Below are positions 6,309-25,971 of a DNA stretch of 32,144 nt, one piece after another (position 1 is the stretch's first letter; each line of letters starts with the position of its first letter). A model generated the notes under the pieces. That model did no database searches, was not told the origin of the DNA, and saw only the letters and a list, made by a program, of their open reading frames with translations. The translations under genes were made by a program, and so were the position numbers. The DNA is from Sphingomonadales bacterium (lineage in GTDB: Bacteria; Pseudomonadota; Alphaproteobacteria; Sphingomonadales; Sphingomonadaceae): contig JAIXQY010000141.1 of NCBI GenBank assembly GCA_027485485.1, positions 1 through 32,144 of the forward strand, read 5' to 3'.

Positions 6309-6411
6309 CGTCATGCTGAACTTGTTTCAGCATCCATGGCGCGCCTGTGCCCCGCAGCGTGAGCCGGGTGGTGCTAACGCCCATGGATGCTGAAACAAGT
6401 TCAGCATGACG
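6309..6411. repeat. Large intergenic palindrome with two 31-nt arms
   Basis: The arms at 6309-6339 and 6381-6411 are perfect reverse complements over 31 bases, separated by 41 bases. Each arm holds a smaller hairpin (GCTGAA/TTCAGC) and the palindrome CCATGG. It lies between the 3' end of the aldose dehydrogenase gene and the rpsB promoter, so it may end transcription from the former. The arm resembles the TCATGC-TGAGCTTG intergenic repeat seen in many proteobacterial genomes; a related half-copy lies at 31935-31957. Confidence 0.85.
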
Positions 6412-12026: not shown

Positions 12027-13550
12027 GTGAGCGACCTCAACACCATATTTGATCTTGCCATCATCGGCGCCGGCATCAATGGCGCCGGCATCGCCCGGGA
12101 TGCCAGCGGGCGCGGCCTGTCGGTGGCGGTGCTGGATGGCGGCGATATCGGTGGGGCCACCTCATCAGCCTCCACCAAGCTGATCCACGGCGGCCTGCGC
12201 TATCTCGAATATTATGCCTTCGGGCTGGTGCGCAAGGCGCTGGCCGAGCGTGAGGTGCTGCTGGATATCGCGCCGCACATCACCTGGCCGCAGCCCTTCG
12301 TGCTGCCGCACGCGCCGGGCATGCGGCCGGAATGGCTGCTGCGGCTGGGCACCCTGCTGTATGACAATCTGGCCCGCCGCCAGGTGATGCCGGGTTCGGA
12401 ACGCATCGATCTACGCCGGGAACGCGCCGGCCGAGCGCTGTCGAGCGAGTATCGCAACGCCTTCCGCTATTGGGATGGCTGGGTGGATGATGCCCGGCTG
12501 GTGGTGGAAAATCTGAAGGATGCACGGGCGCGGGGCGCGCTGGTGCTGCCGCGCACCCCGGTGACCCGTGCCGAGCGGGTGGACGGGCTGTGGCAGCTCA
12601 CGCTGGGCGAAGGCCGCACGCTGCGCGCCCGCCGGCTGATCAACGCCGCCGGGCCCTGGGCCGAAGATGTGGCCCGCCGGGTGATGGGGCTGAACGATGC
12701 GCCGCCGCTGCGGCTGGTGCAGGGCAGCCATATCGTCACCCGCCGGGTGCATCTGGGCCGCGATGCCTTCATGCTGCAACAGCCCGATGGCCGCATCATC
12801 TTCATCATCCCCTATGAGCGCGACTATTCGTTGATCGGCACCACCGAAGGCGATGTGCAGCGCCCCGAGGATGCGAAGGTGAGTGATGCGGAGGTGAGCT
12901 ATCTGTTGGCTGCCGCCAACCGCTATTTGGCGCGGCCGCTCAGCCATGATGATGTGGTGCACCGCTTTGTTGGCGTGCGCCCGCTGATCCTCGAAACCGG
13001 CAAGGGCGACAAGGAAACCACCCGCGATTACCGGCTGGTCGATCATGCCGGGCTGGACGCGATGACCGTGGTGGGCGGCAAGATCACCACCTATCGCGTG
13101 CTGGCCGAAGATGTGCTGGCCCGCATCGCGCCGCGTTCCAAAGGCTGGACCGGCAGCGCCCCCCTGCCCGGCGGCGCCATCGATCGCCACCGCGGCGAGC
13201 ATGGCCAGACCGCCTTCAAGCGCTGGCTGGAACAGTTGCAGCGCCGCGAAGCCAATTATGATCCCAAGCTGATCAAGCGGCTGGCAATGACCATCGGCGC
13301 GCCCACCGAGGGCCTGCTGGCCGGCGGCCTTGGCCGCAATCTGGGCGGCGTGTTCGAAGCCGAGCTCGATTATTTCCGGGATCAGGAATGGGCCACCAGC
13401 GGCGCTGACGTGCTGTGGCGGCGCACCAAGCTGGGCCTGCATCTGGATGCCGCGGCGCAGGGTGAGGTTGCCCGCTGGTTTGGCGAAGATGCGGCGGCGG
13501 CCACCGAGATCCCGGCCGGCCACCGCTTTGCCCGACCCGGTATCGCCTGA
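12027..13550 (+). CDS. glpD: Aerobic glycerol-3-phosphate dehydrogenase
   Basis: This 507-residue FAD enzyme oxidises sn-glycerol 3-phosphate to dihydroxyacetone phosphate at the inner membrane face, passing electrons to quinone. The N-terminal FAD motif DLAIIGAGINGAGIARDASGRG, the family signature GGATSSASTKLIHGGLRYLE (about residues 43-62), VGVRPLI and VVGGKITTYR are all clear. The start is GTG at 12027 with a GGGAAGG stretch a few bases upstream; it fits the family N-terminus. It is divergent from glpK. No GlpR-type regulator is present in the window. The 3' end lies about 63 bases before a copy of a dispersed repeat. Confidence 0.97.
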   Translation: MSDLNTIFDLAIIGAGINGAGIARDASGRGLSVAVLDGGDIGGATSSASTKLIHGGLRYLEYYAFGLVRKALAEREVLLDIAPHITWPQPFVLPHAPGMRPEWLLRLGTLLYDNLARRQVMPGSERIDLRRERAGRALSSEYRNAFRYWDGWVDDARLVVENLKDARARGALVLPRTPVTRAERVDGLWQLTLGEGRTLRARRLINAAGPWAEDVARRVMGLNDAPPLRLVQGSHIVTRRVHLGRDAFMLQQPDGRIIFIIPYERDYSLIGTTEGDVQRPEDAKVSDAEVSYLLAAANRYLARPLSHDDVVHRFVGVRPLILETGKGDKETTRDYRLVDHAGLDAMTVVGGKITTYRVLAEDVLARIAPRSKGWTGSAPLPGGAIDRHRGEHGQTAFKRWLEQLQRREANYDPKLIKRLAMTIGAPTEGLLAGGLGRNLGGVFEAELDYFRDQEWATSGADVLWRRTKLGLHLDAAAQGEVARWFGEDAAAATEIPAGHRFARPGIA

Positions 13551-13613: not shown

Positions 13614-13722
13614 CCTGTCCTACAGGGGCATTTCGGGCGATGATGTTGGCATCGCTCTTTGAAAATCGGCGTCAAAACAAGGCTGAATCCCGCCGGATTC
13701 GTCAATTGTGTCAAAATTGGCC
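13614..13722 (+). repeat. Dispersed ~110-nt repeat, copy A
   Basis: It begins with CCTGTCCTACAG (13614-13625) and ends with a 49-base block (13674-13722) that matches the reverse complement of 25857-25905 at 44 of 49 positions. The block contains the hairpin GAATCC-CGCC-GGATTC (13685-13700) and the end sequence GTGTCAAAA-TTGGCC. The middle is more divergent and differs in length by six bases from copy B. The last bases form the 3' end, including the stop codon, of the minus-strand membrane protein gene at 13711-14514. Confidence 0.85.
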
Positions 13723-14514
13723 GGGTTCAGCCACGGCGCGGCGATACAGATGCCAGGTGGCATGGCCCAGCACCGGCAGCACCACCAGCAGGCCCAGAAA
13801 CAGCGGCAGCATGGCCAGAAACAGGCCCACCGATATCAGCACCGCCCAGGCCAGCATCACCGCCGCATTGGCCTTCACCACGGCAAAACTGGTGATAATG
13901 GCGCTCAGGAAATCGATGTCGCGGTCCACCAGCATCGGCAGGCTGATCACCGTGGCAGCATAAAAGCCCAGCGCGATCATGCCGCCCACCGCGCCGCCGA
14001 TCAGCAGCATGGTGGCGCCGGCCGGGCTGAACAGAAACGCCAGCGATTCAGGCTTCTCGGTCGATTCGGCCATCGCGACGGCAAAAATGCCGTGGGCAAT
14101 CATCAGCCAGAAGCCGAAGGCGACAAACAGCACCACCCCCATGGCCAGCAACTGCTGATCACCACGGCCCTTCACCGCCGCCAGCACCGGCGGCCACCGC
14201 AAGGCCAGCCCACACTGCCGCCGCCGGCTCACCTCATAAAGGCCCACGGCGCAAAACGGCGCCAGCAACGGAAAGCCGGCCGCCGCCGGGATGAGGGAAA
14301 ACAGGTCGCCCCGGCCGGCCATCACCCAGGTCAACGCCAGGCCAACCACGACATAGACCATCGCAAAGCCAAGGCCAAAGCCCGGATGGGCCCGGAAATC
14401 GCGCCAGCCTGCCGCCAGCGCGGCCTGCAGATCAGCCAGGCCAAGATTGGTCGCGACCTGCTGCTGCAACGCCTGTGTCGTGCCGGCGGCTGCTGGCGAT
14501 TTGGCAATGGCCAT
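13711..14514 (-). CDS. DUF2189-like integral membrane protein
   Basis: This 267-residue protein has about six hydrophobic segments (for example FAMVYVVVGLALTWVMAG, LAMGVVLFVAFGFWLMI, TMLLIGGAVGGMIALGFYAA, NAAVMLAWAVLISVGLFLAMLPLFLGLLVVLPVLGH). The pattern RDFRAHPGFGLGFA, LLAPFCAVGLYEVSRR and MLVDRDIDFLSAIITSFAVVKAN resembles the DUF2189 family of alphaproteobacterial membrane proteins, whose biochemical role is not established. GGGGGGAG six bases before the ATG sets the start. A TGA-N6-TCA palindrome lies 50 bases upstream and may bring CRP/FNR-type control. The last codons and the stop lie inside a dispersed repeat, so its C-terminus may have been altered by repeat insertion. Confidence 0.8.
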   Translation of the reverse strand: MAIAKSPAAAGTTQALQQQVATNLGLADLQAALAAGWRDFRAHPGFGLGFAMVYVVVGLALTWVMAGRGDLFSLIPAAAGFPLLAPFCAVGLYEVSRRRQCGLALRWPPVLAAVKGRGDQQLLAMGVVLFVAFGFWLMIAHGIFAVAMAESTEKPESLAFLFSPAGATMLLIGGAVGGMIALGFYAATVISLPMLVDRDIDFLSAIITSFAVVKANAAVMLAWAVLISVGLFLAMLPLFLGLLVVLPVLGHATWHLYRRAVAEPGQF

Positions 14515-14563
14515 GGCGCGCTCCCCCCAACTTCGCCCTGTTCGGCGTCTGTTGGCGGGTATG

Positions 14564-14577
14564 GTGACGCAGATCAC
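14564..14577. promoter_or_regulatory. CRP/FNR-type half-site palindrome
   Basis: GTGA-CGCAGA-TCAC is a perfect inverted repeat with the TGA-N6-TCA core and spacing of CRP/FNR-family operators. It lies about 50 bases upstream of the DUF2189-like gene start, a plausible activator position. A single site by eye; the regulator is unknown. Confidence 0.4.
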
Positions 14578-14596
14578 GCCAACCAGCAAGCCGTGA

Positions 14597-23556: not shown

Positions 23557-24045
23557 ATGGCCGCCATCAGCATCCGCCCGGTTTCGAGCAGCGATGCCGC
23601 CGAACTGGCCGATCTGCTCAACGCCATCATCGCGCGCGGCGGCACCACCGCCTTTGAAACGCCGTTCACGCCAGACCGGCTTGACCATGCCTATCTCACC
23701 GGCCCCACCGTGCATTGCTGTTTCGTGGCCCACGATGATGACCAGTTGCTCGGCTTTCAGACACTGGGCACGCAAAGCTTCCTGCCGGCCGATATCGGCG
23801 ACATCGCCACATTCACCCGGCTGGGCGGCACGCAGGCCGGTGTTGGCTCCGCGTTGTTCGCCGCCACCACGGCGCGGGCCCGGCAACTGGGTCTTGCGGC
23901 GATCAACGCCACCATCCGCGGTGACAATGAAGGCGGCCTCACCTTTTACAGCCGCCTGGGCTTCATCGATCACGAAGTGGTGCCGGCCGTGCCGCTGAAG
24001 GACGGCACGCCCGTTGACCGGATCAGAAAGCGCTACAAGCTTTAA
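23557..24045 (+). CDS. GNAT family N-acetyltransferase
   Basis: This 162-residue single-domain acetyltransferase starts [22 protein letters not shown] and has an acetyl-CoA loop region [50 protein letters not shown], i.e. the G-x-G-x-A/G type loop followed by the N..GL.FY..LGF motif. It resembles amino-acid or phosphinothricin-type acetyltransferases ([10 protein letters not shown]). The substrate is unknown. GGAG five bases before the ATG at 23557 supports this start; a GTG at 23551 overlapping the previous stop is an alternative. The stop codon overlaps the ilvD stop by two bases on the other strand. Confidence 0.88.
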
Positions 24046-25760
24046 ATGTCGGCAAACATGTGGGTTTCCGCCGCCGCACCGGGATGCGTCACCGCGCCCA
24101 GCCTCGCCGGGCCCACCGTCTGCGCGAATTTCCAGATCGCGCCCGATTGATAACTGGTGCTGCGCGGCACCCACTTTGCCCGCCGCTCGGCCAATACCGC
24201 TTCATCCACCGCCAGATCGATGGTGCCGGCAATCGCATCGATGGTGATGATATCGCCATCCTCCACCAGCGCAATCGGCCCGCCTTCCGCCGCCTCTGGC
24301 CCAACATGCCCGATGCAGAAACCGCGCGTTGCGCCCGAAAACCGCCCATCGGTGATCAGCGCCACATCCTCGCCCAGCCCCAGGCCATAAAGCGCCGCCG
24401 TGGTGGACAGCATCTCGCGCATCCCCGGCCCGCCCTTGGGCCCTTCATACCGGATCACGATCACACAGCCCGGCACAATCCCGCGCGCCTCCACCACGGC
24501 AAAGGCGTCTTCCTCGCAATCAAACACCCGCGCCGGGCCGGAAAACACCAGATTCTTCATGCCCGCCACCTTCACGATGGCGCCTTCGGGGGCCAGATTG
24601 CCCTTCAGGCCAACCACGCCGCCGGTGGGCGACAAAGCGTTGGGCACCGAATAAATCACCTTCTGATCGGGGTTCCAGGTCACCTCGTCGATATTCTCGG
24701 CCAGCGTCTTGCCCGTCACCGTCATGCATTCGCCATGCAGGAAACCGGCATCAAACAACGCCTTCAACGCCATATAGACGCCGCCCGCGTCATACATGTC
24801 TTTGGCCACATAGCGCCCGCCCGGCTTCAGATCGGCAATATAGGGCGTCGTCTTGAAAATCTCGGCCATGTCGAACAGGTCGAAATCCACCCCGCATTCA
24901 TTGGCCATCGCCGGCAAATGCAGCGCTGCATTGGTCGATCCGCCGGTCGCTGCCACAATCCGCGCCGCATTTTCAAACGCCAGCCGCGTCGCCAGATCAC
25001 GCGGCCGGATATTCTTCTCGATCAGCGTCATGATCTGCCGCCCGGCAGCGATCGCGATATCCGCCCGGCTGGTATAAGGTGCTGGTGTCATGTTGCTGTT
25101 GGGCAGCGAAAGCCCGATCGCCTCCCCCACGCACGCCATGGTGTTGGCCGTGAACTGGCCGCCACACGCGCCATGGCCGGGGCAGGCAACCTTTTCCAGC
25201 GCCGTCAGCCGCGCCAACGGACAGTTGCCGGCGGCAAAGCCGCCCACCGCCTCGAACACGTCCACCACCGTCACGTCCTTGTCTTCAAAGCGGCCGGGCA
25301 GGATCGATCCGCCATAGACGAAGATGCTGGGCACATTCAGGCGCAGCATCGCCATCATCATGCCCGGCAGTGACTTGTCACAACCGGCAAAGCCGATCAG
25401 CGCATCATAACAATGGCCGCGCATCGAAAGCTCCACGCTGTCGGCGATGCAATCGCGCGAGACCAGGCTGGCCTTCATGCCCTGGTGGCCCATGGCAATA
25501 CCGTCCGTCACGGTGATGGTGTTGAACCGGCGCGGCATCCCGCCCGCCTCGTTCACGCCAATCCGCGCCGCATCGGCCTGCGCATCCAGGGTGGTGTTGC
25601 ACGGCGCCGAATCATTCCCGGCCGAGGCAATGCCCACGAACGGCCGGGCAATCTCTTCCTCCGAAAGCCCCATGGCATAATAATAGCTGCGATGCGGTGC
25701 CCGCTCCGGACCCACCGAAACATGGCGGCTGGGAAGCTTTGACTTGTCGAATCTTGTCAT
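24042..25760 (-). CDS. ilvD: Dihydroxy-acid dehydratase
   Basis: This 572-residue Fe-S enzyme dehydrates 2,3-dihydroxy-isovalerate and -methylvalerate to the keto acids for valine, leucine and isoleucine. The cluster cysteines are in [18 protein letters not shown] and [16 protein letters not shown]. The family regions [43 protein letters not shown] and [20 protein letters not shown] are intact. Residues around [20 protein letters not shown] are typical of IlvD rather than the Edd sugar-acid branch. GAGG lies seven bases before the ATG. It stands alone, without other ilv genes, and overlaps the convergent GNAT gene by four bases. Confidence 0.95.
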
Positions 25761-25856: not shown

Positions 25857-25971
25857 GGCCAGTTTTGACACTTGTTACGAATCCGGCGGGATTCAGCCTT
25901 GTTTTTGCACGCCTATCGCCATCATCCAGCGACAGGCATCATCATGACAGGCTTTGCCGCTGTAGGACAGG
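25857..25971 (-). repeat. Dispersed ~110-nt repeat, copy B
   Basis: Read on the minus strand it begins CCTGTCCTACAG (25971 to 25960), has a variable middle, and ends with the 49-base block (25905 to 25857) shared with copy A at 44 of 49 positions, including the GAATCC/GGATTC hairpin and GTGTCAAAAC-TGGCC. It lies in the divergent gap between ilvD (start 25760) and the VOC gene (start 26036), so it may supply or disrupt promoter sequence there. No terminal direct repeats of target sequence were seen. Confidence 0.85.

Follow-up and report, generated by a model that had tools for sequence, protein, structure and literature searches.

Repeat copies in the window

The window, by which we mean the whole 32,144-nt stretch analyzed here, belongs to a draft genome of 3.32 Mb (G000), where it forms contig C25. 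Genomes G009, G010, G011 and G019 are relatives of G000 within its genus (Sandarakinorhabdus relatives), and G026 comes from a different family. No other inverted-repeat pair in the window matches as well as the two inverted copies of a short repeat, A and B, with 52 nt at 88% (Table 1). Copy A lies at a gene's 3' end and overlaps the last bases of the convergent DUF2189 gene, and copy B lies inside a divergent gap upstream of ilvD. This gene context, the shared left and right ends, a near-identical shared block and a GAATCC/GGATTC stem in both copies made up the original prediction, and each was found where it had been placed. A core of 26 nt, ACAAGGCTGAATCCCGCCGGATTCGT, is identical between the copies, and none was expected from 100 shuffles. 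Separately, positions 6309-6411 hold a perfect 31-bp inverted repeat, CGTCATGCTGAACTTGTTTCAGCATCCATGG, which has a 41-nt loop and is REP-like.

Table 1. Parts of the two repeat copies and neighboring genes in the window
Feature	Position	Strand	Remark
FAD-dependent oxidoreductase gene (DAO)	12027-13550	+	PF01266, 8e-58; ends upstream of copy A
Copy A, shared left end CCTGTCCTACAG	13614-13625	+	no mismatch between copies
Copy A, GTA-type promoter-like box CTGTCCTACA	13615-13624	+	TGTCCT in the -35 place
Copy A, -10-like GATGAT	13639-13644	+	17 nt 3' of TGTCCT; sequence reading
Copy A, boxA GCTCTTTGAA	13654-13663	+	
Copy A, small hairpin GAATCC/GGATTC	13685-13700	+	weak covariation support
Copy A, tail of two 9-mers, CGTCAATTG TGTCAAAAT TG	13700-13719	+	
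Copy A, shared right end GTGTCAAAAYTGGCC	13708-13722	+	
DUF2189 membrane protein gene	13711-14589	-	PF09955, 9e-29; antisense to the direction of copy A
ilvD (dihydroxy-acid dehydratase)	24042-25760	-	PF00920, 1e-120; sense, downstream of copy B
Copy B, shared right end GTGTCAAAAYTGGCC	25857-25871	-	
Copy B, tail CGTAACAAG TGTCAAAAC TG	25860-25879	-	no boxA match in this copy
Copy B, small hairpin GAATCC/GGATTC	25879-25894	-	
Copy B, -10-like CATGAT	25941-25946	-	17 nt 3' of TGTCCT
Copy B, shared left end CCTGTCCTACAG	25960-25971	-	no mismatch between copies
Copy B, promoter-like box CTGTCCTACA	25961-25970	-	

A dispersed family of non-coding modules

The dispersed repeat is a real family of a few dozen non-coding modules. 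A blastn search with copy A gave 11 matches at E<1e-4 in G000, and the left-end 10-mer CTGTCCTACA, hereafter called the box, occurred 39 times as compared with 4 occurrences of the reversed control, which ruled out a coincidence between two copies. It had been foreseen that the repeat might prove to be confined to these two copies, with none in relatives, or to be the remnant of a decayed gene. Neither was the case, as many copies exist in the genome, others are present in other species of the genus, and no decayed gene accounts for them. The right block follows 23 of the 39 boxes in G000 (controls: upstream 0, reverse strand 3), ten belong to a second class that lacks the tail, another four (L181, L232, L225, L230) are in front of genes of a phage-like or regulatory kind, and L164 and L183 are intragenic.

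Within the genus, enrichment of the box over its control varied: G017 (45 vs 6) and G023 (40 vs 3) were among the enriched members, whereas G001 (5 vs 4) and G004 (2 vs 5) were among those without enrichment. Among 147 genomes of the order, enrichment was seen in scattered genera, with a maximum of 82 vs 3 in G124. The left block was also found in 13 stretches of sequence records, five of them from records named Sandarakinorhabdus. Mobile element, small RNA and protein-binding site family had all been proposed for the conserved ends; the genome-wide family stood, a protein-binding site family and an RNA fit best, and the mobile element did not hold. At one locus (C97:221-1066; L003) two modules lie 730 nt apart in the same orientation, each followed by boxA. 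A hairpin family, GGGTGCAGGGTCTGCGACCCTGCCCGCCGGAGGC, perhaps a terminator or REP, adjoins several modules, lying upstream of the box at L009, L035 and L049 and after boxA at L119 and L122.

The left end and the promoters of GTA genes

The left end is promoter-like and resembles a sigma70 promoter in which CTGTCCTACA takes the -35 place. Of the 37 non-coding copies in G000, 28 had the pattern TGTCCT-N17/18-YAnnnT, as did 27/33 in G009, 13/16 in G011, 8/8 in G010 and 18/19 in G026, with G019 as the exception (only 2 of 18 copies), and in an alignment of 17 copies from G026 the TA of the -10 was at least 90% conserved.

The modules have this promoter sequence in common with the GTA genes, the regulator gene included, of their own genome. 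In G000, exact boxes precede a DUF6456 gene (PF20057, 1e-41), a GTA_holin_3TM gene (PF11351, 1e-30) and a terminase-small-subunit-like gene (phrog_4044, 2e-10). Across the genus, all 21 genomes with a DUF6456 match have the box ahead of that gene (20 exact, one with a mismatch), a count that uses one of the 26 DUF6456 matches per genome and omits one fragment and four below the cut-off. The box was upstream of the GTA holin in 11 of 14 genomes (nine exact, two ending in G), leaving three without it; GTA_holin_3TM had no match in G019 or in the box-rich G017, G023 and G013. G019 has many modules, but its own DUF6456 box carries one mismatch (GTGTCCTACA). The box is at the GTA genes of G001 too, although that genome has only five boxes in all. 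The box also lies 29-38 nt before genes for an endolysin (PHROG 3e-33), the terminase small subunit (PHROG matches 9e-26, 1.6e-9 and 2e-10) and a tail lysozyme (2e-26). In G026 a box is followed by the endolysin gene and then the GTA holin, with another box before the terminase small subunit gene, and in G009 a box precedes the tail-lysozyme-like gene. The names of these endolysin, terminase and lysozyme proteins, L181 included, come from PHROGs matches, and a Pfam search of them gave none. A degenerate second terminase-small-subunit-like gene also lies behind a box in G000 (L232).

In other genera, the form [CT]T[GT]TCCTACA was found within 450 nt upstream of DUF6456 in 20 of 23 genomes, nine with CTGTCCTACA, ten with CTTTCCTACA and one with TTTTCCTACA. 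All nine genomes with CTGTCCTACA at DUF6456 carry at least 16 copies of it, and most of those with CTTTCCTACA carry few. G026, G119 and G156 break this rule, with 26, 22 and 31 copies of CTGTCCTACA yet CTTTCCTACA at DUF6456, and G122 has 20 copies and no box at DUF6456. Among 14 control genomes the DUF6456 family was found in Caulobacter vibrioides only. DUF6456 is, in a passage of PMC9638019, the annotation of homologues of the GTA activator GafA.

A palindrome, AACC-N5-GGTT, lies just before the box at DUF6456 genes (L264-L284, L335-L356), between the box and the -10 at many holin genes (L250-L261), and within the region upstream of DUF6456 in 16 of the 23 genomes from other genera. It is likely the operator of a divergent XRE-type gene beside DUF6456. 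That gene is reminiscent of RogA, although we do not give it this name, since no S24 domain was found in it.

boxA and antisense placement

Many modules carry a boxA downstream of the promoter-like left end. The motif SYTCYTTCTCA has 13 sites in G000 (reversed control 1), of which seven are downstream of a box, one is in the 16S rRNA leader and five have no box within 300 nt upstream. The leader site, GCTCTTTCTCA, is 221 nt before the Rfam 16S start (L113), and the exact same letters lie downstream of modules; the modules differ from an rRNA-operon leader in that no rRNA follows and the promoter is another. With a broader motif, set after inspection of the data and applied to five genomes, boxA was downstream of 47 of 103 non-coding boxes, leaving 56 without it, as compared with 1 of 103 upstream and none on the reverse strands. 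The 103 leave out 24 boxes rated coding by a rough ORF rule, copy B among them, and five of these 24 have a downstream boxA. The distance from box to boxA was either 26-49 nt or about 93-208 nt.

The presence of boxA was linked to the orientation of the next gene. With boxA, this gene was antisense in 47 cases and sense in four, and without boxA in 29 and 32, respectively (Fisher p 2e-7); this count used a better gene caller than the rough ORF rule, 14 of 127 boxes were set aside, and one further copy had no gene in view. A second gene calling with G026 added gave 51 vs 6 with boxA and 33 vs 41 without (p 6e-8). In both counts a locus shared by several species contributes each of its orthologous copies. 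Antisense neighbors in G000 include glmS-like (SIS domain), S-adenosylmethionine synthetase (metK), aconitase, acyl-CoA dehydrogenase, M28 peptidase, WS/DGAT acyltransferase and short-chain dehydrogenase genes, as well as a PAPS reductase-family (cysH-like) gene whose module has no boxA match; three of ten antisense-neighbor proteins examined had no Pfam match. Sense neighbors include ilvD (copy B), thiolase, tyrosyl-tRNA synthetase (tyrS), aldehyde dehydrogenase and prolyl oligopeptidase genes. From what is established of Nus factors, boxA would load NusB-S10 and shield RNA from Rho. Its presence implies a transcript. Its place at antisense modules is what one would expect if an antisense RNA has to escape Rho. 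The antisense placement itself may only reflect residence between convergent genes.

The right block

The right block consists of a weak hairpin and two 9-mers, uniform within a species and differing between species. In G000, G009 and G010 it reads GAATCC/GGATTC followed by CGTCAATTG TGTCAAAAC TG, the G010 set of nine copies having been collected via the tail, so that its tail count is biased. G019 has GCGGAAAATGCGGAAAATGTTAAC (20 of 29 boxes read), G011 has the GTCAAAACTG type or TGTAACCTTTGTAACC (22 of 25 read), and G026 has TGTGACTTTTGTGACTTTTG.

A conserved 3' block, intergenic placement, a promoter of its own and many paralogues would suit a stand-alone small RNA family, whose short RNA would end near the hairpin and tail and act in trans on mRNAs. 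We consider such a family quite unlikely, since no T run follows the hairpin and support for the pairing is weak: 81% of cells were paired as compared with 76% in shuffles, 97 of 500 shuffles were as good, and two pairs showed double changes. Rfam gave no match at gathering score in the window, the right block also stands before the ilvD, tyrS, thiolase and aldehyde dehydrogenase genes, and boxA, an antitermination signal, is hard to reconcile with a short RNA.

The tail could instead be a DNA site of the GTA machinery, for example a chromosome-wide, pac-like packaging start that is opened or marked by the promoter. Tandem 9-mers that are uniform within and different between species would fit such a site, as would their place downstream of the kind of promoter that serves terminase small subunit genes as well. 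Yet the helix-turn-helix of the terminase small subunit looks alike by eye in species whose tails differ, class-2 modules have no tail, and published GTAs are described, in passages of PMC9632790, as packaging random DNA, all of which makes this idea very improbable. By eye, the tail as a terminase site was unsupported. The tail as a reverse promoter was rejected as well, the other-strand TTGACA of G000 being absent from the tails of G019 and G026.

Several loci could be followed between species. G000, G010 and G019 each have, at an M28 peptidase gene, a module that points antisense from an equal distance of 134-143 nt and carries the tail of its own species. The C178 locus has a module with a diverged interior in G000, G009 and G010, and in eight other members of the genus it has none, the genes nearly abutting. 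At the locus of copy B, G009 retains CTGTCTTACA and GGCATGATG, a degenerate box and -10, without the tail, and nothing alike was seen there in G007, G019 or G008. At least 14 of 33 G000 modules have a neighboring gene that also adjoins a module in some other species, in a comparison that took in part of the copies of the other species. We conclude that modules persist over long times along with their motifs and that the tails change in concert.

The ten class-2 modules of G000 (L145, L160, L161, L162, L169, L179, L180 and L227-L229) have the box and, in all except two copies, boxA; they lack a tail, and upstream they carry a long stretch rich in CCACC with GGCGAATC. The convergent genes between which they lie include metK, glmS and aconitase. 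Beside the box, five of them match eight of nine consensus positions of an IHF-like site (3.6% in letter shuffles) and the other five match only seven (28.5% in letter shuffles); none of the 28 copies outside class 2 reaches eight.

Relation to mobile elements

Conserved ends had suggested a non-autonomous mobile element, and we weighed the possibility of a MITE-like element that carries a GTA-type promoter and was spread by some transposase. The many copies, uneven among species of one genus, the right block uniform within a genome, the orthologous sites found both filled and empty, and the pair of copies on contig C97 separated by 730 nt all agree with it. The ends do not: the right ends of G019, G011 and G026 are unrelated to that of G000, so that the modules have no shared termini, and no terminal inverted repeat is kept. 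A partial agreement between the left and right ends in G000 (CCTGTCCT-ACA against CCAGTTTTGACA) was considered as a pair of transposon ends and rejected, as it is not kept in other species. No target duplication, which had been proposed as a check, was seen at the one locus compared with eight empty relatives, where the intergenic flanks have diverged so far that one could have been missed. Searches of phage and plasmid collections found no match. The sharing of sites between species and the degenerate box and -10 that G009 has at the copy B site, without a tail, also speak against it, and we judge an element of this kind unlikely. The conserved ends are better read as working motifs than as element termini. 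Correia elements of Neisseria are promoter-bearing intergenic repeats of about 100 nt with 26-bp inverted ends and TA duplications; the modules are like them in size, intergenic place and promoter, without the inverted ends or TA duplications.

Discussion

Detailed knowledge of GTA control comes from two model bacteria, in which mainly particle genes have been described as targets. The GTA promoters of Caulobacter crescentus are, in passages of PMC11150451 and PMC9632790, controlled by GafYZ and IHF and combine a degenerate -35 with a GafY site and an IHF site; accessory sites are many there, about 18 for GafY, and antitermination involves GafZ, a DUF6456-type regulator, with NusA, NusE (S10) and NusG (PMC11150451). 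The system described here has a DUF6456-type regulator too, and its ten class-2 modules in G000, with an IHF-like site beside the box, recall that design of GafY site, IHF site, degenerate -35 and antitermination. It differs in having about 20-35 repeat modules, mostly non-coding, that share a 10-mer in the position of the -35, and in their boxA and species-specific tail. The word boxA is absent from the main text of PMC11150451, and the binding elements quoted in passages of that paper do not resemble CTGTCCTACA. Among the literature matches listed, none concerned a sphingomonad GTA promoter motif, GTA with antisense transcription or GTA with boxA, and for the letters TGTCCTAC none of those listed was on such bacteria except unrelated primers. 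A search on boxA, Sphingo and antitermination found no report.

We lean toward the view that the modules are GTA-switched promoters that yield untranslated, boxA-protected RNA. Upon activation of the GTA regulon, the promoter of each module would start an untranslated RNA, with the DUF6456 regulator (GafA/GafZ-type) or its partner as the probable reader of the box. Where this RNA runs antisense through the neighboring gene, boxA would load NusB-S10 and protect it from Rho. Where the gene lies in sense, as with copy B and ilvD, boxA is absent and the module would act as a leader promoter. The sequence itself shows the promoter pattern, the box shared with GTA genes, boxA, its link to antisense placement and the species-specific 9-mer tail; transcription of the modules, the identity of the reader of the box and the function of the RNA are inferred.

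A bolder and less probable proposal is that GTA induction is a genome-wide non-coding switch. Dozens of promoter-boxA modules would fire together, antisense through neighbors such as metK, glmS, aconitase and the cysH-like gene, shutting down host functions or remodelling the chromosome during particle production, and the 9-mer tail may be recognized by a factor coevolving with this tail in each species.

The promoter signal of GTA genes appears to have been dispersed across the chromosome in the form of a repeat family, together with an rRNA-type antitermination signal. The box offers a simple sequence handle on GTA regulons in the Sphingomonadales. Should the modules fire together with the GTA, its program would extend to dozens of ordinary genes, often in antisense.
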